64,000 bases of DNA from an uncultured Pseudomonas sp. (lineage in GTDB: Bacteria > Pseudomonadota > Gammaproteobacteria > Pseudomonadales > Pseudomonadaceae): contig NZ_CAMPHI010000007.1 of the NCBI RefSeq assembly GCF_946885955.1, positions 62,001 through 126,000 on the forward strand. Direction: 5' to 3'. Within the stretch, counting starts at the first letter, position 1; the number at the start of each line of letters is the position of its first letter. Below the pieces are notes generated by a model that saw only the letters and a list, made by a program, of their open reading frames with translations, did not search any database and had not been told where the DNA came from. Positions 2,584-34,305 of this stretch are shown here, piece after piece. The position numbers and the translations under genes are program-made.

Positions 2584-2596
2584 CTGGAGTATGCCC

Positions 2597-3850
2597 ATGA
2601 GCACGGAAAAACTCGGCGTGCATTCCGAAGCCGGCAAACTGCGCAAGGTGCTGGTGTGCTCGCCGGGCCTGGCGCACCTGCGCCTGACACCGAACAACTG
2701 CGACGAGCTGCTGTTCGACGACGTGATCTGGGTCAGCCAGGCCAAGCGCGACCACTTCGACTTCGTCAGCAAGATGCGCGAGCGCGGCGTCGAGGTGCTG
2801 GAGATGCACAACCTGCTCAGCGAAACCGTGCAGAACAGCGCGGCGCTGAAGTGGATTCTCGACCGCAAGGTCACCGCCAACCTGGTCGGTATCGGCCTGC
2901 AGAACGAAGTGCGCGCCTGGCTGGAGAGCCTGAACCCGCGCACCCAGGCCGAGCACCTGATCGGCGGCGTATCGGTGGCAGAGCTGCTCAAGGGCCTGGG
3001 TGAAAGCCCCGCGCTGAAAATGCTCGGCGACTACAGCGGGCCGGCCAGCTTTGTCCTGCCGCCGCTGCCCAACGCGCTGTTCACCCGCGATACCAGCTGC
3101 TGGATCTACGACGGCGTCAGCCTCAACCCCATGCATTGGCCGGCGCGCCGCCAGGAAACCCTGCTGACCAGCGCCATCTACAAATTCCATCCCAGCTTCA
3201 CCAATGCCGAATTCGACACCTGGTACGGCGACCCGGATATCGACCACGGCCAGGCCAGCCTGGAAGGCGGCGATGTGATGCCGATCGGCAACGGCGTACT
3301 GCTGATCGGCATGGGCGAACGCAGCACCCGCCAGGCCATCGGCCAACTGGCGAAAAACCTCTTCGCCAAGGGCGCGGTCGAGCGGGTGATAGTCGCCGGC
3401 CTGCCACCATCGCGAGCGGCCATGCACCTGGACACCGTATTCAGCTTCTGCGACCGCGATCTGGTCACCGTCTTCCCCGACGTGGTCGCGCAGATAGTGC
3501 CGTTCAGCCTGCGTCCGGACCCGAGCAAGCCCGGCGGCATCGATATCCGCCGCGAGACAAAGCCCTTCATCGAGGTGGTGGCCGAGGCACTCAAGCTGAA
3601 GCAGCTGCGCACCGTGCAAACCGGCGGCGATAGCTACGAAGCCGAGCGCGAGCAGTGGGATGACGGCAACAACGTGCTGGCCCTGGAGCCCGGTGTGGTG
3701 ATCGGCTACGACCGCAATACCTACACCAACACCCAACTGCGCAAGGCCGGGGTGGAGGTCATCACCATCGACGCCAGCGAACTGGGTCGTGGCCGCGGTG
3801 GCGGGCATTGCATGAGCTGTCCGATCAGCCGTGAGCCCATCGACTACTAA
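2597..3850 (+). CDS. arcA: Arginine deiminase
   Basis: Cytoplasmic enzyme converting arginine to citrulline and ammonia, first step of anaerobic arginine fermentation. The 417-residue protein ends in the family hallmark '[17 protein letters not shown]', whose first cysteine (about C405) is the catalytic nucleophile. The guanidino-binding stretches '[10 protein letters not shown]' and '[10 protein letters not shown]' are present. The second ATG (2597) is preferred over the one at 2591 because GGAG at 2586-2589 then has a 7-nt spacing. Length matches the 418-residue P. aeruginosa enzyme. Followed by arcB after 43 bp. Confidence 0.97.
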
Positions 3851-3893: not shown

Positions 3894-4940
3894 ATGGCCT
3901 TCAACCTGCACAACCGCAGCCTGCTCAGCCTGATCCATCACAGCCCCCAGGAGCTGCACTACCTGCTGGAGCTGGCCCGCGAGCTCAAGCGCGCCAAATA
4001 CACCGGCACCGAGCAGCAGCACCTCAAGGGCAAGAACATTGCGCTGATCTTCGAGAAAAGCTCGACCCGCACCCGCTGTGCCTTCGAGGTGGCGGCCTAT
4101 GACCAGGGCGCCAACGTCACCTATATCGACCCCAGTTCCTCGCAGATCGGCCACAAGGAAACCATGAAGGACACTGCCCGAGTGCTCGGCCGCATGTACG
4201 ACGCCATCGAGTATCGCGGCTATCACCAGGAAGTCGTCGAGGAACTGGCCAAATTCGCCGGCGTGCCGGTATTCAACGGCCTGACCGACGAATACCACCC
4301 CACTCAGATGCTCGCCGATGTGCTGACCATGCGCGAACACAGCGACAAGCCCTTGCACGAGATCAGCTACGCCTACCTCGGCGATGCGCGTAACAATATG
4401 GGCAATTCACTATTGCTGATCGGTGCCAAACTCGGCATGGACGTGCGCATCGCCGCGCCCCCGGCACTCTGGCCCGATCCCGATCTGGTCGAGCAATGCC
4501 AGGTCTTCGCCGACGCCAGCGGCGCGCGCCTGACCCTGACCCTGACCCTGACCCTGACCCTGACCCTGACCCTGACCGAGGATGCTCGGGCGGCGGTGCA
4601 GGGCGTCGACTTTATTCATACCGATGTCTGGGTTTCCATGGGCGAACCGGTGGAGGCCTGGGCCGAGCGCATCAAATTGCTGCTGCCCTACCAGGTCAAC
4701 CAAGCGATGCTGCAGGCCAGCGGCAACCCACGAACCAAGTTCATGCACTGCCTGCCGGCGCTGCACAATGCCGAAACCAAGCTCGGCAAGCAGATAGCCG
4801 AGCAGTACCCGCACCTGGCCGGCGGCATCGAGGTGACCGACGAGGTCTTCGAATCCCCGGCCTGCATCGCCTTCGAACAGGCGGAAAACCGCATGCACAC
4901 GATCAAGGCTGTGCTGGTCGCCACGCTCGGCGGTATCTGA
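3894..4940 (+). CDS. arcB: Catabolic ornithine carbamoyltransferase with (Leu-Thr)8 insertion
   Basis: Phosphorolyses citrulline to ornithine and carbamoyl phosphate in the arginine deiminase pathway. Visible signatures: carbamoyl-phosphate loop '[11 protein letters not shown]', the '[11 protein letters not shown]' motif, 'DVWVSMGE' and the ornithine-site 'MHCLPALH'. The start at 3894 follows GAGGA with 7-nt spacing. The product is 348 residues against about 336 usual for this family. The 12 extra residues correspond to a run of eight Leu-Thr pairs at residues 213-228, encoded by eight identical CTGACC units where relatives, as I recall them, have one or two. The frame stays open and all catalytic motifs remain, so the gene looks intact; whether the enlarged segment is tolerated is unknown. 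Confidence 0.95.
4530..4577 (+). repeat. Hexanucleotide microsatellite (CTGACC)x8 inside arcB
   Basis: Eight perfect, in-frame copies of CTGACC (48 bp, no substitution) encode (Leu-Thr)8. Because the unit is 6 bp, gain or loss of copies changes protein length but never the frame. Confidence 0.98.
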
Positions 4941-4987: not shown

Positions 4988-5016
4988 AAGATCCAGGCAG
5001 TTAAAGGAGAATGGCT

Positions 5017-5946
5017 ATGCGACTCGTAATAGCCCTGGGCGGCAATGCCCTGCTGCGCCGCGGCGAAGCGCTGAGCGCACAGAACCAGCGCGACAACGTG
5101 CGCAGCGCCTGCGCGCAGATCGCCCGTATCGCCCCCGGCAATCAGCTGGTTATCGCCCATGGCAACGGCCCGCAAGTCGGCCTGCTGGCGCTGCAGAACG
5201 CCGCCTACGGCGCCACCGACGCCTATCCTCTGGACGTGTTGGGCGCCGAAACCGAGGGCATGATCGGCTATATGATCGAGCAGGAACTGGGCAATCTGCT
5301 GCCGTTCGAGGTGCCGTTCGCCACCCTGCTGACCCAGGTTGAAGTCGACCCGACCGACCCGGCCTTTGCCCACCCGAGCAAGCCCATCGGCCCGGTCTAC
5401 AGCAAGGCCGAGGCACAACGCCTGGCCCGTGAGAAAGGCTGGAGCATCGCCGCCGATGGCGACAACTTTCGCCGCGTGGTGGCCAGTCCCAGGCCCATGC
5501 GGATCTTCGAGATCCGCCCGATCCAATGGCTGCTGGAAAAAGGCACAGTGGTGATCTGCGCAGGTGGTGGCGGCATTCCCACGGTCTACGACCAGCATCG
5601 TCAGCTGCAAGGCGTCGAAGCGGTGATCGACAAGGACCTCTGTTCAGCGCTGCTGGCCGAGCAACTGGAAGCGGATCTGCTGCTGATCGCCACGGACGTC
5701 AACGCAGCCTTCGTCGATTGGGGCCTGCCGACACAGCAAGCCATCGCCCGGGCGCATCCGGATGCCGTCGAGCGACTGCCCTTTGCCGCCGGTTCCATGG
5801 GCCCCAAGGTACAAGCCGCCTGCGAATTCGCCCGGCATACCGGCAAGCCCGCGGTGATCGGCGCCCTCGCCGATATTGAGGCAATCGTCCAGGGCAGGGC
5901 CGGTACGCGGATCAGCACCCAGACCGAGGGCATCGAATACCGCTGA
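5017..5946 (+). CDS. arcC: Carbamate kinase
   Basis: Last enzyme of the arginine deiminase pathway: transfers phosphate from carbamoyl phosphate to ADP, giving ATP, CO2 and ammonia. The 309-residue product starts [17 protein letters not shown], the nucleotide-binding glycine motif of the amino-acid kinase fold, with '[14 protein letters not shown]', '[10 protein letters not shown]' and the C-terminal '[12 protein letters not shown]' motif. The start at 5017 has AAGGAG 7 nt upstream; an in-frame ATG at 5011 would leave only 1 nt. It ends the operon and converges on atpG 38 bp away with no obvious strong terminator between them. Confidence 0.96.
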
Positions 5947-5984: not shown

Positions 5985-6869
5985 TTAGCGCGAACTCAGC
6001 GACTCGTAGCCGGCAATTACCTCGAACAGCTCGGCGTCGATGCTGCTCTGACGCAGGCTGTTGAAGCGGCTGTGCAATTGCGCCAGCAACTCCTCGATAT
6101 TCTTGTCCGCCCGCTGCATCGCCGCCAGGCGGCTGGCATTCTCGCTGGCCAGGGACTCGGCGCAGGCGCGAAACAGCGAAATAAACAGGTACTCGCGAAT
6201 CAGCGCGCGCAGGGTCTGCCCGGCATCGTGGAGAATTTCCGGCAACGCGCCGCTGGGCCAGGGAATGCTTGCCAGCGTCTGCTGCCACTGCCGGTCCAGG
6301 GGTAACAGCCGTTGCCTGAAGGGCGCGTAGCTCATGCCGATCTGCGGACGGTTGTGGAACAGATGGAAACGCGCCTGCTCGCTGCCAGCCAGATGCGCTT
6401 CGCTGTCCAGCTGAATCTGCCCCACCAACGGAGCGATGCCCATGACCGAACTGGGCACCCGGAACAATCCCTTGGGCCGCACACCGGCCTGCTCCAGGCA
6501 GCCATGCATGCGTTCGCCCACCGCCCAGACCTGCAAGTCGCCGGGCATATCGCCGAGGGCCCGGATGGTGAATGCAGCCAACTGTTCATTGAACTGGCCC
6601 ACCAGGCCCTGATCGGAACCAAACACGACCACGCCGACAGGCGTCCTGGGGCCGGGCGTAGGCTCGAGTGCACTGACCAGGGCCGGAGATTGACGCAGAC
6701 ACAGGCTCAAGCCCAACTCGACGCTACGGTAGTACTCGGCCAAGGCCAGCACCGATTGCTCATATTGGCTGATGCTGGCGCCGGCCAGGGCTTTCATCGA
6801 ACGCACCACCGCCTGCAGGTCACCGGCGCTGGCAATACTACGTCGCAGACTGGCCGGGGTATCGCTCAT
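5985..6869 (-). CDS. atpG: N-ATPase gamma subunit
   Basis: Central-stalk subunit of the second, N-type F1Fo-ATPase. The 294-residue product has the gamma-family N-terminal coiled-coil start ('[21 protein letters not shown]') and the C-terminal helix '[25 protein letters not shown]', which differs from housekeeping gamma subunits. It is last in the operon and overlaps atpA by ATGA, indicating coupled translation. It converges on arcC. Confidence 0.88.
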
Positions 6870-8443
6870 GGCCAGCTCTCGGCATGGTTATCCGGCTTGG
6901 TGACGGCTGCCACTTCGGCCTGAAACGTGCGCAACGCCTGACGGGCCGCCTCGATAATTACCTCGCGGTCTTCATCGCGCAGTTTGCCCGGTGCCTGCAG
7001 ACGCTCACGCAGGTCCATGGGCAAGCGAGCCGCAGCTTCGGCCACCACTGCGCCAGCGCCGCGCATTTGCGCCAGGGCGATGCCATCGAACAGCTCGCTG
7101 CTCAGGGCCAGCAGCGTGGCGATCTGCGCCGGTACCGACACCGGGGCGGACTCCGCCTGTTTCAGGCAGGCGCGTATCCGCCGACCGTGATCGATCACCC
7201 GCAACGAGTCGTCGCCCAGGCGCGCACCGAAGCGGGCGAAGGTTTCCAGCTCCTCGAACTGCGCATACGCCAGTTTCAGATCGCCAGCCACCGCACGATA
7301 CGCCGCCCGCTGCGCCTTGCCGCCGACCCTCGACACCGACTTGCTGACGTCCACCGCAGGCAATACGCCCAGTTCGAACAGGGCCGGCGACAGGTAGATT
7401 TGCCCGTCGGTAATCGAAATCAGATTGGTCGGAATATAGGCGGAAATGTCCTGGGCTTCGGTCTCGATGATTGGCAGCGCGGTCAGAGAGCCCGCCCCGC
7501 ACGCCTCACTCAGATGAGTGGCGCGCTCCAGCAAACGGGAATGGATATAGAAGATGTCGCCGGGAAACGCCTCGCGCCCGGGCGGCCGGCGCAACAGCAG
7601 GGACAGCTCGCGATAGGCGCGGGCATGCTGGGTCAGGTCGTCGTAGACGATCAGCACATCGCGCCCGGCCTCCATGAAATGCTCGGCGATGCTGGTCGCC
7701 ATATAGGGTGCGATATAGGCCAGGCCCGGCGCCGCATCGCCCTGGGCGACCACCACCACGGTATAGGCCAACGCGCCCTTCTCCCGCAGGATCGCCACGG
7801 CCTTGGCCACCGCCGACGCGCGCTGGCCGATGGCGCAATAGACACAGAGCACATTCTGGTCGTGCTGGTTGAGGATGGTATCCAGAGCGATGGCGGTCTT
7901 GCCGGTCTGCCGGTCGCCGAGAATCAATTCACGCTGGCCACGGCCAATCGGAATCAGCGCATCGATGACCTTGAGGCCGGTCTGCAGCGGCAGGCTGACC
8001 GGTGCCCGGTCCATGATCGGCGCCGCCGGCCGCTCGATCGGCAGGCGCGCGCCTTCGGGCAACGGGCCCAGACCATCCAGGGGCTGCCCCAGGGGATCGA
8101 TGACCCGCCCGAGCAATGCCTCGCCGACCGCGACGTCCATCACCCGGCCGGTGCGCCGGACCTGATCGCCGGCCTGCAGCCCGGCGTGATCGCCGAGCAG
8201 CACCACGCCGATTTCCGCTTCGTCGAGATTGAAGACGATGCCGAAGATATCGCCGGGAAAACTCAGCAACTCCTCATAGCCGGCACCTGGCAGCCCGCTG
8301 ACCGTGGCGATGCCGGTGGACACCTCGGTAATGGTGCCGATCTCGCACAGCTGCAGCGGCGGCTGAAAGTCCTTACGCGCCTGACCGATGCGCTCCAGCG
8401 TACGCTCGAACACCTGCTGCAGCCCTTCCAGCGGCGCGCTCAT
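6866..8443 (-). CDS. atpA: N-ATPase alpha subunit
   Basis: Non-catalytic nucleotide-binding subunit of the F1 head. The 525-residue product has the P-loop '[15 protein letters not shown]' preceded by '[10 protein letters not shown]', and the alpha-specific '[15 protein letters not shown]' segment. I use the ATG at 8443, which overlaps the atpF stop in an ATGA; the longer open frame to 8584 lies inside atpF. It is co-translated with atpF and atpG. The gene belongs to the nine-gene N-ATPase operon rather than the housekeeping atp operon, as shown by the presence of atpQ and atpR and the absence of atpH. Confidence 0.95.
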
Positions 8444-9219
8444 GGCTGGACCGCGATGCTGGTCTGGGTCTGCAACAGCTCGCCAACGCTCTGTTCCAGA
8501 GCCTGCAGATAGTCGTCGATGCTCCAGGCCAGGCGCTGGCCATGGCAGCTCAGCTCGATCCCGGCCAGCCGTTCGGCCTGGCACTCGAAGCGCAGGGCAA
8601 CCTCACCGGTAAAACACTGATTCAACGCTTCTTGCAGCAGCTGCCGTTGCCCGGCCGGTAATTCGAAGGCGCTGCGCAGCAGCACTGGCTCGCTACCGCG
8701 ACCAATGGCCTTGGCAAGACGCTGTTGCGCCGCGGCATCCAGGTGCTGCAACTGTTCGATAAATACCGCGACCAGGCGTTCCTCGAGGCGGCTGTCCGCC
8801 AGGTCGGCCAGGACCTTGCGGGCGATGGCGAACACCTCATGCTGGACGCGCTGGGCAAGCGCACGATTGAGGTTGTGGGCGTCATTACGCAATGCCTCCT
8901 GACGCCTGATGCTGATCGCCTCGGCCGCCTGCCGCGCAGTTTCCAGCAGGCGCTGGCGCTCGATCTGCACCTGCGCCACGGCCTCGCTCAGCAGGGAGGC
9001 GCGTTGCGCCTCGAATGCCTGGTTTTTCTCTTCGAATTCGGCGCGCTCGCGTTGCGCCTCGGCCTTTTGTCCGACGGCATCGGCCAACTGCGTGGCGATC
9101 AGCTGCTCGCGGGCGGCGATGGCACGCAGAATGGGCTGGTAGAGAAAGCGCTTCATCAGCCAGACCAGCACGATGAAGTTGAGCGCCTGGGCGGCGACGG
9201 TGAACCAGTCGATCAGCAT
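8440..9219 (-). CDS. atpF: N-ATPase peripheral stalk subunit (b, with delta-like extension)
   Basis: The 259-residue product begins [20 protein letters not shown], the single membrane helix of a b subunit, followed by about 100 charged, Ala/Arg/Glu-rich residues that should form the stalk coiled coil. It is about 100 residues longer than a typical 156-residue b subunit, and the operon has no separate delta gene. The extra C-terminal segment ('[26 protein letters not shown]') resembles the C-terminal region of delta, so a b-delta fusion is likely (inference). The start at 9219 follows the atpE stop by 4 bp; its ribosome site is weak. Overlaps atpA by 4 bp. Confidence 0.85.
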
Positions 9220-9223
9220 GGCG

Positions 9224-9505
9224 CTACTGACCTGTCGCCCGGGCGATGGCGGTATTCCAGAACGGGTTGGCAAACAGCAGGATCATCGACACCACGAAGC
9301 AGTAGATGGCGGTGGACTCGATCATCGCCAGGCCGACAAACAAAGTGCGCGTGATGGTCGCCGAGGCATCCGGCTGCTGGGCCAGGGAGGTCATCGCCGT
9401 GGCCACCGCGCGACCTTCGGCCAGGGCCGGGCCCATGGTGCCGAAGCCGGTGGTGAGTCCCGCCATGACAATTGAAACCAGGGCAATGAGGGTCGCGCTG
9501 TCCAT
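9224..9505 (-). CDS. atpE: N-ATPase rotor ring c subunit
   Basis: A 93-residue, two-helix proteolipid forming the ion-carrying ring. The outer helix contains 'GLAMIESTAIYCFV' with the essential carboxylate E63 flanked by S64, T65 and Y68, the polar set seen in Na+-binding c subunits. The inner helix has a second carboxylate, E30, in 'GPALAEGRAV'. Two carboxylates per hairpin are characteristic of N-ATPase rings. The ion (Na+ or H+) cannot be decided from sequence alone. It lies between atpB and atpF. Confidence 0.93.
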   Translation of the reverse strand: MDSATLIALVSIVMAGLTTGFGTMGPALAEGRAVATAMTSLAQQPDASATITRTLFVGLAMIESTAIYCFVVSMILLFANPFWNTAIARATGQ

Positions 9506-9533
9506 GATGAGTCCTTGCTGAAGTGGTGAAAGT

Positions 9534-10223
9534 TCACGCCGGCGACAGCGGTCGCGGCTTGCGGGTTCGGGTGGCGGCGGCGATATAGACCGCGGCGAGG
9601 ATGCTGAAGATATAGGCCTGAACCATGCCGGTGAGCAGGCCGAGCAGGGTCATGACAATGGGAAACAGAAACGGCGTAATCGCCAGCAGAATGCCGAGAA
9701 TCATCGCCCCGCTCATCATGTTGCCAAACAGCCGCACGGCCAGGGCCAGGGTGCGCGACACTTCGCTGATCAGGTTGAACGGCAGCATGATCCAGGTCGG
9801 TTCCAGGTAGGTTTCCAGATACCCGCGCAGGCCCTGGTCGCGGATTCCATACATGGGCACCGCCACCAGCACGCAGGCCGCCAGGGCAACGGTGGTGGAG
9901 AGCGAGCCAGTGGGCGGTTCGAAACCCGGAATCATGGTGCACAGAGCGGCCGCGGCGATGAACAGAAACAGCGTGCCGAGAAAGCCCAGGTAGCGCCGCG
10001 GCTGTGCCAGGCCGATCTCGGCAATCTGTGTTTCCATGCCGGTGACGATGATCTCCAACAGGTTCTGCCATGCCGAGCGCCGGTGATCGTTGGAGAGCCT
10101 GGCGGTGATCAGCCGCGAGCCCAGCACCAGGGCCAGCATCAGCGCCCAGGTGTAGACGATGGTGGCATTGAGCTTGAACAGGCCGAACTGCCAGAAGATG
10201 AGCTCATCCGGGCTAAGGTGCAT
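9534..10223 (-). CDS. atpB: N-ATPase a subunit (ion channel)
   Basis: Stator membrane subunit that carries ions to and from the c ring. The 229-residue product has five or so hydrophobic helices and the conserved 'SEVSRTLALAVRLFGNMMSG' segment, in which R164 is the essential stator arginine. The ATG at 10223 overlaps the end of atpR by 11 bp. It is followed by atpE after 28 bp. Confidence 0.93.
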   Translation of the reverse strand: MHLSPDELIFWQFGLFKLNATIVYTWALMLALVLGSRLITARLSNDHRRSAWQNLLEIIVTGMETQIAEIGLAQPRRYLGFLGTLFLFIAAAALCTMIPGFEPPTGSLSTTVALAACVLVAVPMYGIRDQGLRGYLETYLEPTWIMLPFNLISEVSRTLALAVRLFGNMMSGAMILGILLAITPFLFPIVMTLLGLLTGMVQAYIFSILAAVYIAAATRTRKPRPLSPA

Positions 10224-10533
10224 GGCTGACTCCCTGCGCGGCTAGGGCCGCCGGCATTGGCGCCTGGCGGGTCAGCCGGGTCACCAGCAGGCGGGCCAGA
10301 AGGAAACCCAGCAGACACGCCAGCAAACGCCGCCAGTCTTCGCCGGCCACCCAGTAGAAGCCGGCCAGGGTCAGGCTCAGGCGCAGCACCAGGCTGACCA
10401 GGAACCACAGCGCCGGGCGGCGGGAGACCAGCCCCCGGCGTAGCGTCCACCACAGGCCGGCGAAAAACAGCACACCGAGCACGGCACCGGCCCCACCGGC
10501 CAGGGCTATGAAGAGGGCTTCATTCAGGTTCAT
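10213..10533 (-). CDS. atpR: N-ATPase-specific small membrane subunit AtpR
   Basis: A 106-residue protein with about three hydrophobic helices, starting MNLNEALFIALAGGAGAVLG. It has no counterpart in housekeeping ATP synthase operons; a gene of this kind between atpQ and atpB defines the N-ATPase class. The start at 10533 is supported by AGGAGG 9 nt upstream. It overlaps atpQ by 14 bp and atpB by 11 bp, so the three are translationally coupled. It is thought to help ring assembly, but its function is not proven. Confidence 0.85.
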   Translation of the reverse strand: MNLNEALFIALAGGAGAVLGVLFFAGLWWTLRRGLVSRRPALWFLVSLVLRLSLTLAGFYWVAGEDWRRLLACLLGFLLARLLVTRLTRQAPMPAALAAQGVSHAP

Positions 10534-10873
10534 CGTGCTTGTCCTCCTGTTCTTCGCGCATGGCGCGGTCTTCCTTGGCGACCCAATGCCAGGCATTGAA
10601 GCAGCCGAGCAGCAGGCCGGCGACCAGCAGCGCCAGGGTCCAGGAGCGCGTTCCCGGATAGCTGCGATCCAGCCACAGCCCCAGCGCCGCGCCCAGTAAC
10701 GTCGGTACCGCCACAGACCAGCCGATCAGGCCCATCATGCCCAAACCGAACCAGATACCCGGTGTGGCATCGCGCCGCGCCTTGAGTTTGCGCGCGGCCT
10801 TGATCCCGACCTGCTCGGCGAGCTCAGCCGGCGGCTTGCGGGGCGGTGTTGTCGGTTTACGAGCTTCGGCCAT
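10520..10873 (-). CDS. atpQ: N-ATPase AtpQ (AtpI-like assembly protein)
   Basis: A 117-residue protein with a charged, proline-rich N-terminus, two membrane helices ('IWFGLGMMGLIGWSVAVPTL' and 'WTLALLVAGLLLGCFNAW') and a charged C-tail, as in the AtpI/AtpQ family. The ATG at 10873 is chosen because the N-terminal 'MAEARKP' matches the family layout. A perfect 16-bp tandem duplication covers this start (10871-10902), so a second copy of the site and an ATG at 10889 lie upstream but out of frame. It begins 40 bp after the atpC stop. Confidence 0.82.
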   Translation of the reverse strand: MAEARKPTTPPRKPPAELAEQVGIKAARKLKARRDATPGIWFGLGMMGLIGWSVAVPTLLGAALGLWLDRSYPGTRSWTLALLVAGLLLGCFNAWHWVAKEDRAMREEQEDKHDEPE

Positions 10874-10902
10874 GTTTTGCCGCCTGCATGTTTTGCCGCC
10901 TG
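10871..10902 (-). repeat. 16-bp tandem duplication over the atpQ start codon
   Basis: Two perfect copies of CAGGCGGCAAAACATG (minus-strand sense) lie end to end. The downstream ATG starts atpQ. The upstream ATG is 16 nt away and therefore out of frame; it opens a short frame of about ten codons that stops within atpQ. Confidence 0.95.
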
Positions 10903-10913
10903 GTTGTTCTGGG

Positions 10914-12810
<1,897 letters not shown>

Positions 12811-26455: not shown

Positions 26456-27250
26456 CTAGCCGTCAATATCAATGGCTTTTGAGCGGATCCAGCCTGTGAC
26501 AGTTTTCTTCCCGAGAAAGGTCACGTTGTAATAAAGACCGTCTCTAGTTTGCACATAATCACTTAGGTAAGCCTTGTCACCTTTTATCAAATATCCTTTT
26601 CGTTGCGAGAATTCTTCCTCGCCTACTCGGTCGTAGAAGAAAGTCTTTTTTTCGGTTATTATTCCAATAGCGTGATCTTGCGATCCGGCTTTGACTATAT
26701 ATGGGGTTGAACATAAGCGATCATCACATATTTCTAATTTTTCTAGACTGTTGTGAAATTGCTCTCTTCTTTCACAAACAAAGTAATCACCCAGACGTTC
26801 TGAGAAGCACAAGGTATCGTTGTGCACTAGTGAGGCATCTCGATAGTTGCTAAGTATCCGCCCTCCTGAAAAGTCAGGATTTGTAATAGTACTAATTTGA
26901 GAAGGTATAAATCTTCTACTCTCCTGCGAATACACAAAGAGGGAGTAACTTTCGTTAACGTCATTTTTTGCGTATGCTACAGCTAAAGTACAGCTCGACG
27001 ATATAGAGCTATGACCCATAATCAATTCAGTATTTTCGGGGAGCCAATCGAGTAGCAACCTATAAGCTGATCCGACGTCTGAAGCAATAGTAATCCCTCC
27101 CTCGCTCAGCTTAAGTATTCCTGTATTGCCGGGACATTGCTTACTGATTGGAACACTAACTTTTTCATTGATTTCTATGTATGCGAATTCTGCATGAGAA
27201 ATGGGGGAAAATAGAATAAAAAAAATAGCGTACAAATTAATAGCCCTCAC
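26456..27250 (-). CDS. Secreted protein, probable immunity factor for the GH19 effector
   Basis: A 264-residue protein with a signal peptide ('INLYAIFFILFSPISHA') directing it to the periplasm. The mature part contains several cysteines, and the C-terminal ~50 residues ('YVQTRDGLYYNVTFLGKKTV', 'TGWIRSKAIDI') look like a bacterial SH3-type fold. I do not recognise the family. It starts with GTG at 27250, overlapping the effector stop as GTGA. This gene order and the periplasmic location fit an immunity protein against a cell-wall hydrolase delivered to the periplasm. The DNA is AT-rich with rare codons for this genome, as in the effector's 3' end, which suggests joint horizontal acquisition. 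Confidence 0.6.
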   Translation of the reverse strand: MRAINLYAIFFILFSPISHAEFAYIEINEKVSVPISKQCPGNTGILKLSEGGITIASDVGSAYRLLLDWLPENTELIMGHSSISSSCTLAVAYAKNDVNESYSLFVYSQESRRFIPSQISTITNPDFSGGRILSNYRDASLVHNDTLCFSERLGDYFVCERREQFHNSLEKLEICDDRLCSTPYIVKAGSQDHAIGIITEKKTFFYDRVGEEEFSQRKGYLIKGDKAYLSDYVQTRDGLYYNVTFLGKKTVTGWIRSKAIDIDG

Positions 27251-30200
27251 CTCAATGCCTCCTTTATTTTCTTGAATAGTGCCTGCCTTTCGTGCAAGTG
27301 ATTATCCCCACCATTTACAACTTTTGTAATTCTTCGGACTACTTCTTTATCTTTGTCTTCCGACGACATACTTCCCTCATCTAGCTCAGCATAATATCGG
27401 TCGATTTTTGAATTTAGATTTTCGCCTTTAAATTTAGTCCAGAACCAGAAAGAAACATCAACAGCATGACTTATGCTCTCACAAAGCATTTGTGGATTGG
27501 TAACGCAGTCTATGCCGCTATATACTTTATATTTCTCATACGCACTTTTCCAGGTTATTTGTATCAACCCTTTGCCTTTATATTTTGGCCCATCACCAAT
27601 AGTAGTATTCCCTTCTGCCATTATCTGCCTATGCCTTTTGCATGTACGGCTAGTTTCAGTTAGTGGTGTACAGACAGTTGCAGGATGAGCTGATAGATCG
27701 TAATCATTCCCACTAGCGTACTCCATGGTTGTTTTGAAGTGGTCACTTTCATGGTAGCACTGAGCCAAGAAGTGAATTTTATAGATGCACTTTTTGAATT
27801 CGTACTTTTCGAATGATTTATTTAATAGTTCAATGAACTTTTTGCGATCAACATCATATGAGTCACATGTCACGGGCATGTTGTCAGCTGTAAACAGCCT
27901 ACCTAATCCAAAAATGCTATCGAATTTTTCAATATCTAATTCGCAGCACGCCTTTTTATGGGAAAAAGCACTTAATATACCCACCGGCTGAAAATGCCAA
28001 GCCACCCCATCCGCCGCTATCCCTGGCTGGCCGGCCAATTCCTTCCACCAGGATAGAGTCTCAATTCTTTTCTTCTCCGCAACCCAAGCCGGATTGGGAT
28101 CGGCTGGTGTGTGTTCCATCAGTTTGTCCAGCTGATTCCATTTGCCTTCGTTCCAGAACCACTCGCTTTCGTGCTGGCTAATCAGCAGGGAAAGTTGCTG
28201 CGCCAGCCAGGGTTTGCCGAGGGCGGTTTTCAGTTCGGCGGGGGTGAGTTTGTTGTCACGGATTCCCTGTTCGTTCGGCAGGTCGATGACCTTGTAGAGT
28301 GCGCCAAGAATCTCTCCGCGTTCCGCCTCTTCGATAAGCGCCGCGTAGCTTTGGGTTTCCTCTACCGTGGCGCGGCCGGTGGCATCCAGGGTTCTGGCCA
28401 GGGGGGCATCCAGGGGAAGTTTGTCTTGGATGGTACTGAAACCTGGCCACTCCCAGGGCGAGTGGCGAGTGACGATCAGGGGTTGTTCGGGGGCCCAGCC
28501 GGAGATGTCGTTACCGTTTTCGTCGCCGACGGTTACATACCACCATTGAATCTTGTCAGGGTCGATGGCTTTGCGTTCGTCGGGCAGGCCATTCCATGAA
28601 CCTGCTGGCAGAATGCGCTCATAACTACAGGCTTGGCCATCGATGCCGGAATGCAAGGGGAACTCGCTCCAGGCGGCGAGTGCACCGGCGGTGCTGGTGC
28701 GCCGACCTTGGGCATCGAGTTTGCCGCGCTCGACCCAGAGCGGCTCGCCAACGACAGCGCCGACCTTACGCCATAGATGGGTAGATGGAACGCCGCTGCC
28801 CTGTACATAGGGCAATGGATCGCCGCCTTCTACGGAGCTGAAGGAAACTTTAAGAAAGTCCACTTTGTCTGGCATATCGGCAGCTTCGATGCCCATGCGG
28901 GTAGCCAAGGTGGTTTTCTGCGCAGCGTTTAGCGGGTAGGTGAAGTCAGTTGCGAAGCTGCCTAGCTCGGTGGTCTTTTGTGCGTTGCAGGTGACGTACT
29001 TCTGCACCTTGGCCCAGCGACCCGATTTAGGTGAATCACTGCAGATGCGCACGTCCGCGCCCGCTACGATCTGTGCATTGGCAGCGGCGGGCTGGATGAT
29101 CTTTGAGCCTTTGTCCACCTTGATCAGGGTTTTCTGTTCGGCCGGTAGTTTCTCTGCGACTGCGCGGCTTTGCGCGAGAAACGCGGGGACGTCCTCGCTG
29201 GTGAATATTTCCAGATGCAACATCGTGCGGGGGCGGGCGTCATCGAAGTTCTGATACTTGCCGATATGCCCAACCAGCTCCCCGGCCTTGATGGGGTAGG
29301 GCTTGGGGAGAATATGCACGGAGTCCAGGGTGGGAACGGCTTTGCTTGCTTCGAGTGATGCGAAATGAACGAAGCCTCGAATGTTGTGCACGCTATTGGC
29401 CGATAGCGGGGCGATGTCTTGCCCTTCGACGATTTGCTGTAATTCGCGGTATGCAGCTGTACCCGCTTTGAGCGAGCACTTCGCCCCTACAGGCAATAGG
29501 CCGGTTATCGTGCTGCCGCTGTTGGCGGCTTTTCTGACATTCAGGCCCAGCTGTGGGACTAATGTCGGTTCCGCGTCCCTGGCATCGTCCGCAACCAAAA
29601 AGGTATCCGCTTCACCAGTCACTGCCTGCATTTCGCTGGTGTAGACCCAGCCCAACTCTGCGCCCGTCAACGCGGGGATAGCGCTGCCTTCGAGAATGCT
29701 AAGCAATCTGTGCCATGCGGGTGATTCGGTGTCCGCATCACCAACTTTGACCTTGGTGCCTTTCGGCAGCAATGCTGTAACCGCGCCATCCTTGGGCGCA
29801 GCACGCACCCGTAAACCAAGCACGCCGTCGCTAGCCTTATCGGCCTTTACGCCGTACAGCGTTTCGCCGAAGAAAGACGGCGGAGCCGGAGCATCCGCGT
29901 TGCTGTAGCTCGCCCAGTCCGACAGATGCATATAAAGGCTGTAAAACGTCAATGCCGTAGTCGTGGGGGCTGTGCTGGGCATAGTTGCAGCCGGTGCGGT
30001 GTCTGCGGTTTCGCCAGCATCCGCAGCAGCGCTAGGCGCAGGCACTGACGGCAGCTCCAACCTGTGTTTGACCAATACGAAACCCGTTGAGAACGGCAGG
30101 TGCATGACCGTTGGGCCTTCACCGTATTGAGTGGTGGGGTAGCGTTGATCGATGCGGTAGGCAATAACCTCGCCGTCCGCGATGCAGTGGATCGCGGACT

Positions 30201-30405
30201 GATCGAGGCTGCCGGCTGTGCCTTCGTCAAAATGCACACCGCCATGCCAGAGGCCATTGGCGCCCATGGGATAGAAGCCGTCTTTTGCGTTGGCCAGGGC
30301 CTCGTAGTACAGCTCGGGGGTTGCATTTCCGGGGGCGCTCTCGCCTTCAGCCGCGGCCTTGGCTTTGAATGGATAAGCCCAGTTGATCGGTTTGCTGTCT
30401 GCCAT
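27247..30405 (-). CDS. Type VI secretion cell-wall effector: M23-like, SH3-like and GH19 domains
   Basis: A 1052-residue protein directly downstream of vgrG, with no signal peptide. Residues ~5-180 resemble an M23 (lysostaphin-type) fold: 'GLWHGGVHFDEG' (H54...D60), 'IADGEVIAYRI', 'YSLYMHLS' (H160). Two SH3-like segments follow (~185-260 and ~278-355), then 'GELVGHIGKY' and 'TMLHLEIF' (H397), which look like the rest of the M23 fold. The middle 400-800 is unassigned. Residues ~856-1052 form a GH19 chitinase/lysozyme-type domain with 'CYHESDHFKTTMEYASG' (catalytic E886) and 'YKGKGLIQITWKSAYEKY'. The 3' ~740 bp are AT-rich unlike the rest. Its role is probably killing rivals by cutting peptidoglycan. 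Confidence 0.78.
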   Translation of the reverse strand: MADSKPINWAYPFKAKAAAEGESAPGNATPELYYEALANAKDGFYPMGANGLWHGGVHFDEGTAGSLDQSAIHCIADGEVIAYRIDQRYPTTQYGEGPTVMHLPFSTGFVLVKHRLELPSVPAPSAAADAGETADTAPAATMPSTAPTTTALTFYSLYMHLSDWASYSNADAPAPPSFFGETLYGVKADKASDGVLGLRVRAAPKDGAVTALLPKGTKVKVGDADTESPAWHRLLSILEGSAIPALTGAELGWVYTSEMQAVTGEADTFLVADDARDAEPTLVPQLGLNVRKAANSGSTITGLLPVGAKCSLKAGTAAYRELQQIVEGQDIAPLSANSVHNIRGFVHFASLEASKAVPTLDSVHILPKPYPIKAGELVGHIGKYQNFDDARPRTMLHLEIFTSEDVPAFLAQSRAVAEKLPAEQKTLIKVDKGSKIIQPAAANAQIVAGADVRICSDSPKSGRWAKVQKYVTCNAQKTTELGSFATDFTYPLNAAQKTTLATRMGIEAADMPDKVDFLKVSFSSVEGGDPLPYVQGSGVPSTHLWRKVGAVVGEPLWVERGKLDAQGRRTSTAGALAAWSEFPLHSGIDGQACSYERILPAGSWNGLPDERKAIDPDKIQWWYVTVGDENGNDISGWAPEQPLIVTRHSPWEWPGFSTIQDKLPLDAPLARTLDATGRATVEETQSYAALIEEAERGEILGALYKVIDLPNEQGIRDNKLTPAELKTALGKPWLAQQLSLLISQHESEWFWNEGKWNQLDKLMEHTPADPNPAWVAEKKRIETLSWWKELAGQPGIAADGVAWHFQPVGILSAFSHKKACCELDIEKFDSIFGLGRLFTADNMPVTCDSYDVDRKKFIELLNKSFEKYEFKKCIYKIHFLAQCYHESDHFKTTMEYASGNDYDLSAHPATVCTPLTETSRTCKRHRQIMAEGNTTIGDGPKYKGKGLIQITWKSAYEKYKVYSGIDCVTNPQMLCESISHAVDVSFWFWTKFKGENLNSKIDRYYAELDEGSMSSEDKDKEVVRRITKVVNGGDNHLHERQALFKKIKEALR

Positions 30406-30462
30406 GGTGTAAATCCCTAATCCCTGTTTGCGGGTGTGATGACTGCCCGCACGTAATCCCTA

Positions 30463-32511
30463 TTAACCGGAGAAATTGAGCATGCGTTTGCGTTTGGTTG
30501 GCGCGCTGGTCAGTTCGTTCCCTTGCGCCTGCTCCAACACATCCCCGGCCTTGTCGCTATCCGCCGCACCTGGCAATACCGGCGGTTTGATCTTGATTCC
30601 CGAGCCTTTGCCCGCGGCCCCGCCGGCATTGATCTTGGCCATTGGGCCGCTGAGGGTGATGCCGCCGGGGTCGAGTTTGATAAAGCTGCCGCCGGCTTTG
30701 AGGGTCAGTTCGACGCCGGCTTCGATGACCATCTTTTGCCCGGCTTTGAGGTGGATCTCGCGGCCGGCCTTGGTCAGTTGCGCGGTACCGAGCTTGATGT
30801 GCTGGTTCTGCCCGACGGTGAGGTGGTCGTCGGGTTTGACTTCGACCTTGCGCTCGGCTTTGACGGTCAGGTGCTCTTCGGCGTGCAGTTCGGTGTAGCT
30901 GTTCTTTTCGACGGTGTCGTGGCGCTCGTGGCCGATGCGGATTTTCTGGTCGTGCTCGATGTTTTCGTCCCAGTCGCGCTCGGCGTGCAGGTAGATCTGT
31001 TCTTCGCCCTTTTTGTCTTCGATGCGCAGTTCGTTGTAGCCGCCACCGCCCGGGCTGCTGAGGGTTTTGAACAGGCTGCGGGTTTTGTTCGCCGGCAGGT
31101 CGTAGGGGACGACGTGTTCCTTGTGGTACAGGCAGCCGGTGACCAGGGGCTGGTCGGGATCGCCTTCGAGGAAGGTGACCAGTACTTCCATGCCGATGCG
31201 CGGGATGGCGATACCGCCGTAGTGGTCGCCGGCCCAGCTGTTGGCCACGCGCAGCCAGCAGCTGGTGGTGTCGTCGGCCTGGCCCTCGCGGTCCCAGAAG
31301 AACTGCACCTTGATCCGGCCATATTGGTCGCAGTGGATTTCTTCGCCGGCCGGTCCCGTGACTACCGCGCTTTGGCTACCGAGGACGCGCGGTTTGGGGT
31401 AGTCCAGCGGTGGGCGGTAGGGGATGTCCCAGGGCGTGGCGGTGAAGCGGTTGCGGTAGCCCTGCTGGAAGCCATCATTGGCTTCGGTATGGCTAGTCAC
31501 CGACTCTTCCAGCACTTGCGGTTGTTTGCCCTGGTGGATGACTTCGCGCAGCAGCCAGAGGTCGTTGCAGTCCGGGTGCGGGTGGTCGGAGAGTTCGAGG
31601 AAGTGGCCGCTGAGCAGTTTCGGTTGGTCGCCGCGGCCTTCGGCCAGGCGGTAGTCGGCGCGGTGGCGTTCGAGATTGCGCTGGCTCAGGTGTTTGCCGC
31701 GGCTACGCTCGGTGTAGCGGCCGGGGTAGTCGTAGTCTTCCAGGTCCGGTAGCGGTTTGGCTTCGGAGTCGCGCTCCGCTTTGAATGCGGTCTCCAGCAG
31801 CAGGCGCGGTTTTTCGAAATCGTAATCGCGGCGGGTGGTGCGGCTGGTGCGGGTTTCCAGGCGCACGGCGAAACGCTTGATCACCGGCTCATCGGCAGTC
31901 ATGCCGTTGTCTTGCAGGTAGGCGGTGGGCTGGCCGAGTTTGCCGAAGGCACTCTGGTCATCACCGAAGATCAGCACATGGCCTTGCCGGCTATGACTGA
32001 AGTGGTAATGGATGCCCTCCTCGCTGCAGAGGCGCTGGATAAAGTGCAGATCCGATTCGTCGTATTGCACGCAGTAATCGCGCTCGGGATAGACCGTGGG
32101 GCCGAGCAGAAATTGGTAGGCGTTGGCCTGAATGCCGTGTTCCTCCAGCACCTGGGCGACTATCTGCGGAACCGTAAGATGCTGGAAAATGCGCTGGTTG
32201 GTACGACAGCCGAGGTAACTGAGCTGCGGCACGATGGACAGGCTGTAGCGGGTCAGGCGCTTGCCGGACTCGCCCTGGGCGACGCGATAGATGATGCCGT
32301 GAATCCCCAGGCCGTCCGGGGTAAAGGCGAGAAAGGCCGGCCGGTGCAGCAGGCCTAGATAGTCCAGATCCGGGCGCTCGCTGATCAGCTCGACTTCGAA
32401 GCGATATGGCTGGCTGATGGTTTCGCGCCCGCTGAATTCGAGCACTTGCAGGTCGTGGTCGAGGCCTTCGATGGAAAGGCTGAAATGGGTTTGGTTGGCG
32501 GGGTTGAACAT
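30463..32511 (-). CDS. vgrG: Type VI secretion tip protein VgrG
   Basis: Spike protein of the T6SS, a trimer of gp27/gp5-like modules that carries effectors out of the cell. The 682-residue protein has the N-terminal 'HFSLSIEGLDHDLQVLEFSG', the OB-fold 'HCDQYGRIKVQFFWDREG' and 'ANSWAGDHYGGIAIPRIGMEV', the 'EGDPDQPLVTGCLYH' segment, and a C-terminal beta-helix of repeated hydrophobic strands. There is no enzymatic C-terminal extension. The ATG at 32511 follows GGAGA. No other T6SS core gene is present, so this is an orphan vgrG module that depends on an apparatus encoded elsewhere. Confidence 0.95.
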   Translation of the reverse strand: MFNPANQTHFSLSIEGLDHDLQVLEFSGRETISQPYRFEVELISERPDLDYLGLLHRPAFLAFTPDGLGIHGIIYRVAQGESGKRLTRYSLSIVPQLSYLGCRTNQRIFQHLTVPQIVAQVLEEHGIQANAYQFLLGPTVYPERDYCVQYDESDLHFIQRLCSEEGIHYHFSHSRQGHVLIFGDDQSAFGKLGQPTAYLQDNGMTADEPVIKRFAVRLETRTSRTTRRDYDFEKPRLLLETAFKAERDSEAKPLPDLEDYDYPGRYTERSRGKHLSQRNLERHRADYRLAEGRGDQPKLLSGHFLELSDHPHPDCNDLWLLREVIHQGKQPQVLEESVTSHTEANDGFQQGYRNRFTATPWDIPYRPPLDYPKPRVLGSQSAVVTGPAGEEIHCDQYGRIKVQFFWDREGQADDTTSCWLRVANSWAGDHYGGIAIPRIGMEVLVTFLEGDPDQPLVTGCLYHKEHVVPYDLPANKTRSLFKTLSSPGGGGYNELRIEDKKGEEQIYLHAERDWDENIEHDQKIRIGHERHDTVEKNSYTELHAEEHLTVKAERKVEVKPDDHLTVGQNQHIKLGTAQLTKAGREIHLKAGQKMVIEAGVELTLKAGGSFIKLDPGGITLSGPMAKINAGGAAGKGSGIKIKPPVLPGAADSDKAGDVLEQAQGNELTSAPTKRKRMLNFSG

Positions 32512-32880
32512 CCGATGTTCTCCGGTTGCGCTATAGGCGGCGGACAAACGCGAACCTTGCAATAAAGCCCTCTGCCGGTGCAACTGAAACGCACGGTTTT
32601 AGCGTTTGGGTTCGCAATAAAAACAGGACTGCGCAACAACTTGCGCAATTATTCGGTTCTTAGTTGGGAGTTTCGGCGTACCGCGGCCTGTTCTGCACAC
32701 AAGGGCGCATGACCGGGTCTTCGTGAGAGTCAGAGCTGTGCCGTTCATGCCCCATGAAATCCTGCAATTAAACTCACATCCCGGCGACGACCAAGCCGCA
32801 GGCAAAAATGATATGAGCCAACTCGCGACGCGCCGGCAAGGGATTGTTCACCCCCGCCGGAATCGCCTGCCACTTAATCT
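32512..32880. other. 369-bp intergenic region upstream of vgrG
   Basis: Lies between the argA stop and the vgrG start, both on the minus strand, so it must hold the vgrG promoter. I found no sigma-54 site. It contains a perfect dyad TGCGCAA-CAAC-TTGCGCA at 32630-32647, about 120 bp upstream of vgrG, which could be an operator. No gene is apparent. Confidence 0.55.
32630..32647. promoter_or_regulatory. 7+7-bp dyad upstream of vgrG, possible operator
   Basis: TGCGCAA and TTGCGCA are perfect inverted copies separated by CAAC. Placement in the only promoter-bearing gap before the vgrG module makes it a candidate regulator site; no specific regulator is assigned. Confidence 0.35.
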
Positions 32881-34179
32881 TTACAGCGCCTTCTCGAACA
32901 CCTTGGAGTTGCGCTGGAAGTTGTACAACGAGGCGCGCGCCGCCGGCAGGCGGTCGACGCTGCTCGGCACGAAACCGCGCTCGCGAAACCAGTGGGCGGT
33001 ACGGGTGGTGAGCACGAACAGGGTCTTCAGGCCCTGGGCGCGTGCGCGATCTTCGATGCGCTCGAGCAATTCGTCGCCGCGCCCACCGTGGCGGTAGGCC
33101 GGGTTGACCGCCAGACAGGCCAGTTCGCCGAAGTCCGAATCGGCGATCTGATAGAGCGCCGCGCAGGCGATGATCATGCCGTCGCGCTCGACGATACTGA
33201 ATTGACCAATCTCGCGCTCCAGCACTTCGCGCGAGCGGCGTACCAGAATGCCCTGCTCCTCCAGCGGACTGATCAGTTCGATCAGACCGCCGACATCGCC
33301 GATATTCGCCTCGCGCAGGGATTCGAACTGCTCCTGGTCGACCAGGGTGCCGCCGCCGTCGCGGGTGAACAGCTCGGTCAACAGAGACCCGTCATCGGTA
33401 TAACTGACGATATGCGCGCGCTTGACCCCGCCGCGGCAGGCCTGTGCGGCGGCATCGAGCAGTTCCGCCTGGTAGCTGCTGCCGAGCCGCGCCAGATATG
33501 CCGGCACCTGCTGCGGACGCAGCTCGCGCACCAGTTTGCCATCCTCGTCGAGCAGACCGCGCTCCGCGCTGAACAGCAACAGCTTGTCGGCGCCCAGGTC
33601 GATCGCGGCGCGGGTGGCAACATCTTCGCAGGCCAGGTTGAAGATCTCCCCGGTTGGCGAGTAACCCAACGACGACAACAGGACGATGCTGCGCTCGTCG
33701 AGCAGACGGCCGATGCCCTTGCGGTCGACCCGCCGCACCTCGCCGGTATGGTGATAGTCGACGCCGTCGACCACGCCAATCGGCCGTGCGGTGACCAGAT
33801 TGCCGCTGGCCACGCGCAAGCGCGAGCCCTGCATCGGCGAGGCGGCCATGTCCATCGACAGGCGCGCTTCGATGGCGATACGCAACTGGCCGACAGCGTC
33901 GATCACGCACTCCAGGGTCGGCCCGTCGGTCACTCGCAGGTCGCGATAGAAATGCGGCGTCAGCCCGCGCGCAGCCAGGCGTGCTTCGATCTGTGGGCGC
34001 GAGCCGTGCACCAGCACCAGACGCACGCCGAGGCTATGCAGCAGCACCAGATCGTGAACGATATTGCCGAAATTCGGATGGGCGACGCCCTCGCCCGGCA
34101 ACATCACCACGAAGGTGCAGTCACGGTGGGCATTGATATAGGGGGACGCGTGGCGAAGCCAATTGACGTAGTCGTGCAT
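32881..34179 (-). CDS. argA: N-acetylglutamate synthase
   Basis: First step of arginine biosynthesis: acetylates glutamate with acetyl-CoA, feedback-inhibited by arginine. The 432-residue protein, the family's usual length, has an N-terminal amino-acid-kinase-like domain ('LGVRLVLVHGSRPQIEARLA', 'LSSLGYSPTGEIFNL') and a C-terminal GNAT domain ('ELACLAVNPAYRHGGRGDEL'). The ATG at 34179 gives MHDYVNWLRHASPYIN; the upstream extension to 34227 has no support. It is followed by the vgrG island and preceded by argE on the same strand. Confidence 0.95.
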   Translation of the reverse strand: MHDYVNWLRHASPYINAHRDCTFVVMLPGEGVAHPNFGNIVHDLVLLHSLGVRLVLVHGSRPQIEARLAARGLTPHFYRDLRVTDGPTLECVIDAVGQLRIAIEARLSMDMAASPMQGSRLRVASGNLVTARPIGVVDGVDYHHTGEVRRVDRKGIGRLLDERSIVLLSSLGYSPTGEIFNLACEDVATRAAIDLGADKLLLFSAERGLLDEDGKLVRELRPQQVPAYLARLGSSYQAELLDAAAQACRGGVKRAHIVSYTDDGSLLTELFTRDGGGTLVDQEQFESLREANIGDVGGLIELISPLEEQGILVRRSREVLEREIGQFSIVERDGMIIACAALYQIADSDFGELACLAVNPAYRHGGRGDELLERIEDRARAQGLKTLFVLTTRTAHWFRERGFVPSSVDRLPAARASLYNFQRNSKVFEKAL

Positions 34180-34305
34180 GTAAAAACAACCTGTGAGTCG
34201 TGTGCAGCGCATGAATTGGGCGCCCAAGAGCGCCAGACGAACAGCCGATAGCAGCGGTGTTATCGTCGCAGTTGAAACAGCTTCACGCGCGCGTTCCTCC
34301 GAGGT

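Follow-up and report, generated by a model that had tools for sequence, protein, structure and literature searches.

The arcB gene in a 64,000-nucleotide stretch of DNA from an uncultured Pseudomonas sp. (contig NZ_CAMPHI010000007.1, positions 62,001 to 126,000, referred to here as the window) contains eight perfect tandem copies of the hexamer CTGACC, and its product, a catabolic ornithine carbamoyltransferase (ArcB) of 348 residues, has a run of eight Leu-Thr dipeptides where ArcB of Pseudomonas aeruginosa has two. The interpretation that we favour, with a probability of about three in four, is that the array is a young, length-polymorphic coding microsatellite that has grown by slippage from a two-unit ancestor and is tolerated by the enzyme. 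At the level of the protein, and judged from sequence comparison, the slippage reading is well supported.

The array occupies positions 4530-4577 of the window on the plus strand, has no mismatches, and is preceded by a CGC codon (Arg) and followed by a GAG codon (Glu). Tandem Repeats Finder (TRF) reports it at 4529-4577 with a period of 6, 8.2 copies, 100% matches and a score of 98, the highest of nine rows for the window, the runner-up scoring 64. A three-unit pattern with up to two mismatches allowed is found seven times in the window (six registers of the array itself and one two-mismatch site at 10363), compared with a mean of 0.00 matches in 100 dinucleotide-preserving shuffles, and no other perfect hexamer array of at least three copies is present within the window. 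The array is in frame with arcB and encodes (Leu-Thr)8 as ArcB residues 213-228. An earlier reading of the window made from its letters (the sequence-only reading) had described eight perfect in-frame units, and the direct read, TRF and the 348-residue translation all agree with it. With perfect tandem units of no more than six bases, lying within a gene and in frame, the array is an in-frame coding microsatellite. It is no frameshift switch, because the six-base unit lies inside the coding frame, and it does not have the switching by frameshift or promoter change by which a contingency (phase-variation) locus is recognized. A (Pro-Asp)n frame and, on the opposite strand, a (Gly-Gln)n frame also run across the array; they were considered as genes and dropped, being taken as shadows of arcB.

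Slippage is indicated by proteins that differ from the window ArcB in length alone. A protein search identified P0002 (342 residues, five contigs) and P0003 (338 residues, two contigs), which have five and three Leu-Thr units, respectively. When the array is excised, these two proteins and the window ArcB (P0001, eight units) agree at every one of the 332 remaining positions. At least two changes in unit number are unaccompanied by any amino acid change across these 332 ArcB residues. A further protein, P0004, has two units and differs from the window ArcB at six of the 332 positions outside the array. The three- and five-unit alleles are known as proteins, from separate contigs, and it is at the protein level that unit number is seen to differ between close relatives (8, 5, 3 and 2). 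The sequence-only reading had proposed that six-base units would let the length vary with the frame kept, and the three-, five- and eight-unit proteins with their identical flanks bear this out, the variation being seen between contigs; it had also named a finding of eight units in all close relatives as one that would count against it, and the relatives have five, three and two. The 348-residue ArcB of the window is itself not among the 120 matches listed in the protein search. A search scored on ArcB residues 195-250 alone, meant to rank longer tracts first, placed P0002 and P0003 at the top among the 120 of 347 matches listed, and three or more consecutive Leu/Ile/Val-Thr/Ser dipeptides occur only in the window ArcB, P0002 and P0003 among 208 proteins (14 of the 208 fell outside the tract pattern on the first scan and had ordinary tracts when rechecked). 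The arcC product of the window matches P0209 (one member sequence, ten contigs) at every one of the 309 residues of the latter. P0209 and P0003 are given the same longest contig size, 557,926 bases, and the other nine contigs of P0209 are not assignable to an ArcB allele.

The uniformity of the units is less telling. The lack of any silent change had been offered as a sign of recent slippage, and the units are indeed identical, but CTG accounts for 73% of Leu codons and ACC for 76% of Thr codons in the four arc genes, and because these codons dominate, their uniform use across the units is only modest extra evidence for recency. The chance of finding CTG and ACC throughout eight Leu-Thr pairs is ~0.009, and throughout the six extra pairs ~0.03; an argument for recency from uniform codons alone was therefore set aside as too weak. 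Recent slippage is supported instead by the three-, five- and eight-unit proteins that are otherwise the same.

The ancestral state of the tract is suggested by the relatives of arcB. The P. aeruginosa protein (1dxh, 335 residues, with the initiator Met absent) aligns with the window ArcB over nearly the whole length with a single 12-residue gap, located at the array, where 1dxh reads LTLTED; the sequence-only reading had given both this LTLT and a P. aeruginosa ArcB shorter by 12 residues, correctly in each case. We compared 110 related arcB loci, these being the best 80 of at least 582 confirmed loci on genome contigs together with the best 30 from 398 genomes of the genus. The tract is four residues long in all 110, reading ITLT in 95, and none of the 110 has a perfect CTGACC pair. 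The best of the at least 582 genome-contig loci has 89% protein identity to the window ArcB. The nearest genome among the 398, in which the first 636 bases of arcB are 90% identical in DNA, has the tract sequence CTGACCCTCAGC; this DNA comparison used the same genome draw as the best 30 loci and adds no new species. Viral contigs yielded no confirmed arcB relative, and plasmids yielded six records with 60-80% identity, none of which covers 80% of arcB. The four-residue tract throughout the 110 loci and the two-unit sister P0004 support the proposal, made from the sequence, that six units were gained over an ancestral two.

The simplest route to the series can be laid out in steps. The ancestral four-residue tract would have come, in this lineage, to be an LTLT coded by two perfect CTGACC copies, which could have seeded slippage; replication slippage would then have added whole six-base units to give the alleles seen as proteins with three, five and eight. 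Each such step would be the gain or loss of one Leu-Thr dipeptide, so that the reading frame is kept. The side chains of a beta strand point in and out by turns, a rhythm that the two-residue unit shares, so that the strand could be made of any two units, with the rest looping out ahead of it. In an alternating fold of this kind the active site is at the opposite strand ends from the helix-to-strand-start junction, and the loop would be on the side away from it, for which reason the enzyme is probably active and the variation near-neutral or mildly costly. Near-neutral change is the likeliest outcome, the function of ArcB itself being read from sequence and a structural model.

Aside from the array, ArcB looks functional. 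The motifs STRTR, HPTQ, SMG and HCLP, which serve carbamoyl phosphate and ornithine, are present in the translation and are invariant or nearly so in a 48-sequence alignment, and the ratio of nonsynonymous to synonymous substitution rates (dN/dS) calculated without the array is 0.094 relative to the nearest relative and 0.076-0.172 relative to seven other loci (L001 and L084 in this comparison are from one genome). P. aeruginosa ArcB (1dxh, 1ort) is of the same family and fold; for 1dxh the identity is 82%, and the eight-unit model superposes on it with a root-mean-square deviation of 1.4 over 334 residues. In the eight-unit predicted structure confidence drops only around residues 212-223, and the two-unit model has a predicted local distance difference test score (pLDDT) of 98 in block 211-220. 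Strand 225-228 of the eight-unit model lies where the two-unit model has strand 212-216, and the insertion is predicted to be a low-confidence loop in the ornithine domain, at the junction of a helix with the beginning of a strand.

Several observations weigh against growth by tolerated slippage, or weaken parts of the case for it. The perfect repeats of the three- and five-unit alleles are deduced from their proteins. Two of the related loci, L002 and L015, have a perfect CTCACC pair in the tract and are unexpanded, so a perfect pair alone is insufficient for expansion. The four-residue tract in all 110 relatives could reflect selection against longer tracts. In the alignment of 17 homologues the gap is placed on the left side of the tract, as it probably is in the alignment used for structure prediction, and because the choice of units that fill the strand partly follows the placement of this gap, the strand register is not independent evidence.

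It is possible, if unlikely, that the long tract impairs ArcB, in which case the five- and eight-unit alleles would be weak or dead and short-lived, and the array would be a reversible off or low setting like that of mutL. The twelve extra residues do enter an element that is ordered in the two-unit model and becomes low-confidence, no relative among the 110 has a tract longer than four residues, and a mutL allele reduced from three GCTGGC units to two is defective (PMC2955026). An impaired gene is harder to reconcile with an arcB that has no other lesion, in which the three alleles share the rest of the protein and comparison with relatives shows purifying selection on it, and with the retention of the predicted fold.

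Selection on copy number as an adaptive dial, acting on ArcB cooperativity or stability and tuning arginine fermentation, is improbable. In its favour, the three alleles differ in no other part of the protein, but expanded tracts were seen only in this lineage among the 110 loci and 208 proteins. In alignments with the P. aeruginosa enzyme, E105, which we take to be linked to cooperativity, is equivalent to E106 of the window ArcB, and R28 and R32 are equivalent to R29 and R33; all three residues are unchanged. The study PMC9506655 names R28 and R32, in the carbamoyl-phosphate domain, as P. aeruginosa dodecamer residues, and gives the trimer contacts of the Psychrobacter catabolic ornithine carbamoyltransferase as residues 45-101 of the same domain. 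The array lies outside these contacts and, in the model, extends a loop in the ornithine domain, and because the two are in different domains a direct effect of the array on allostery is not suggested; the tuning of an allosteric dodecamer put forward in the sequence-only reading is therefore unsupported. Graded effects of in-frame repeat number are described for tolA (PMC3477136), and would be a precedent for a dial. A specific form of it, in which slippage would shift the register of the strand and thereby fix the loop length in a frame-safe and reversible manner with the fold intact, different lengths being kept for differing oxygen or arginine supply, is a long shot.

There is little reason to attribute the copy numbers to assembly errors, in which a short repeat is collapsed or expanded. 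Repeats can be miscounted when k-mers are short, but ordinary reads span 48 bases, and the five-unit form is listed for five contigs and the three-unit form for two, although a single sample assembled more than once may lie behind some of them. Of the two errors collapse is the likelier, and for this reason an expanded allele would survive the objection.

That the array works as DNA or RNA (as a binding, recombination or regulatory element), with the Leu-Thr run a by-product, is hardly credible, since although 7 of 398 G224-family genomes have at least four tandem copies of CTGACC, all seven were inspected and have their arrays at other places with none in arcB, and the window array is mid-way in an operon gene. 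The arrays of the seven genomes reach nine copies (L115) and are in Gly-Gln-rich stretches, one signal-peptide-like stretch, or unnamed frames, as read from the frames without annotation. L115, L116, L119 and L120 have CTGACC or its complement in tandem, and one frame is Gly-Gln-rich in L116 and L120. (CTGACC)3 is present in 3 of 95 relatives of G187. There are five perfect hexamer arrays of at least three copies in 113 loci (952,595 bases), three of which, L111-L113, were picked because each has such an array. The longest has five copies; it is composed of perfect GCACCA units at position 8127 of L072, and no other array in the 113 loci scanned exceeds three copies.

Bacterial genes with in-frame hexanucleotide repeats are already known, and it is the perfect eight-unit case in a conserved metabolic enzyme that is new. 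A literature search returned nothing joining ornithine carbamoyltransferase with tandem repeat slippage in bacteria, what it did yield being structures or analogues. One comparison is with TolA, an envelope protein. The intragenic tandem repeats of Escherichia coli tolA show in-frame copy-number polymorphism within the species, like the arcB series, and differ in that synthetic variants carrying 2 to 39 copies have graded stress phenotypes and that contractions are RecA-dependent (PMC3477136). The (GCTGGC)3 repeat that encodes LALALA in mutL of Salmonella and E. coli is, like the arcB array, a six-base in-frame dipeptide repeat in a conserved protein, with unit number changing via slipped-strand mispairing; the functional mutL allele has three units and the loss of one makes it defective (PMC2955026), whereas arcB encodes a metabolic enzyme and appears to have gained units over an ancestral two, up to eight. 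Haemophilus influenzae also has hexanucleotide repeats inside open reading frames with the frame kept, but in a four-genome study the coding repeats are conserved or changed in sequence and not in length (PMC2651432), whereas arcB differs in length and its protein is otherwise identical. What distinguishes arcB is a natural series of 2, 3, 5 and 8 units in a core enzyme, with no other protein difference among 3, 5 and 8. The series allows the length tolerance of one transcarbamylase helix-strand junction, and the speed of tract mutation, to be asked about directly, and should ArcB prove to respond in a graded way, slippage would be tuning a central step of catabolism heritably.

The gene itself (3894-4940, plus strand) encodes a protein with both transcarbamylase domains (Pfam PF02729 and PF00185) that scores 628 bits with NCBIfam NF002470 (cut-off 545) and 626 bits with 1dxh. 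An alternative upstream GTG at 3831 would extend ArcB to 369 residues, but the ATG at 3894 is favoured because 15 of 17 aligned homologues start there; of the other two, P0047 is ten residues longer and P0101 starts four residues later. Upstream on the same strand are arcD, encoding the arginine-ornithine antiporter (1156-2583; TIGR03810, 718 bits, cut-off 591), for which the ATG at 1156 was used in a listed reading frame that opens at a GTG at 1114, and arcA, encoding arginine deiminase (2591-3850; TIGR01078, 534 bits, cut-off 489); downstream, also on the plus strand, is arcC, encoding carbamate kinase (5011-5946; TIGR00746, 417 bits, cut-off 358). Because ArcB exceeds the curated family cut-off and has arcD, arcA and arcC as neighbours, in the order arcD, arcA, arcB, arcC and all on one strand, the four genes make up an ordinary arginine deiminase operon.

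Among the other features of the window, we note an alternate (N-type) F1F0 ATPase cluster at 5985-12807, next to the arc operon but encoded on the minus strand; its alpha, beta and gamma subunits are recognized through NCBIfam, and subunit a and AtpR through Pfam. Within the cluster, at 10871-10902, the 16-base unit CATGTTTTGCCGCCTG is perfectly duplicated in tandem. A protein with amino-acid kinase and GNAT acetyltransferase domains is encoded on the minus strand at 32881-34227, some 27 kb from the arc operon, an arrangement that we take to be that of N-acetylglutamate synthase, the gene presumably being one of arginine biosynthesis. The region at 26456-32583 (minus strand) encodes a VgrG-like protein (30463-32583), then a protein of 1052 residues, and then one of 264 residues without a Pfam match, and could represent a type VI effector-immunity island; the gene for the 1052-residue protein has a lower third-position G+C, and its product has weak matches, below the cut-off, to a chitinase-class domain and to SH3.
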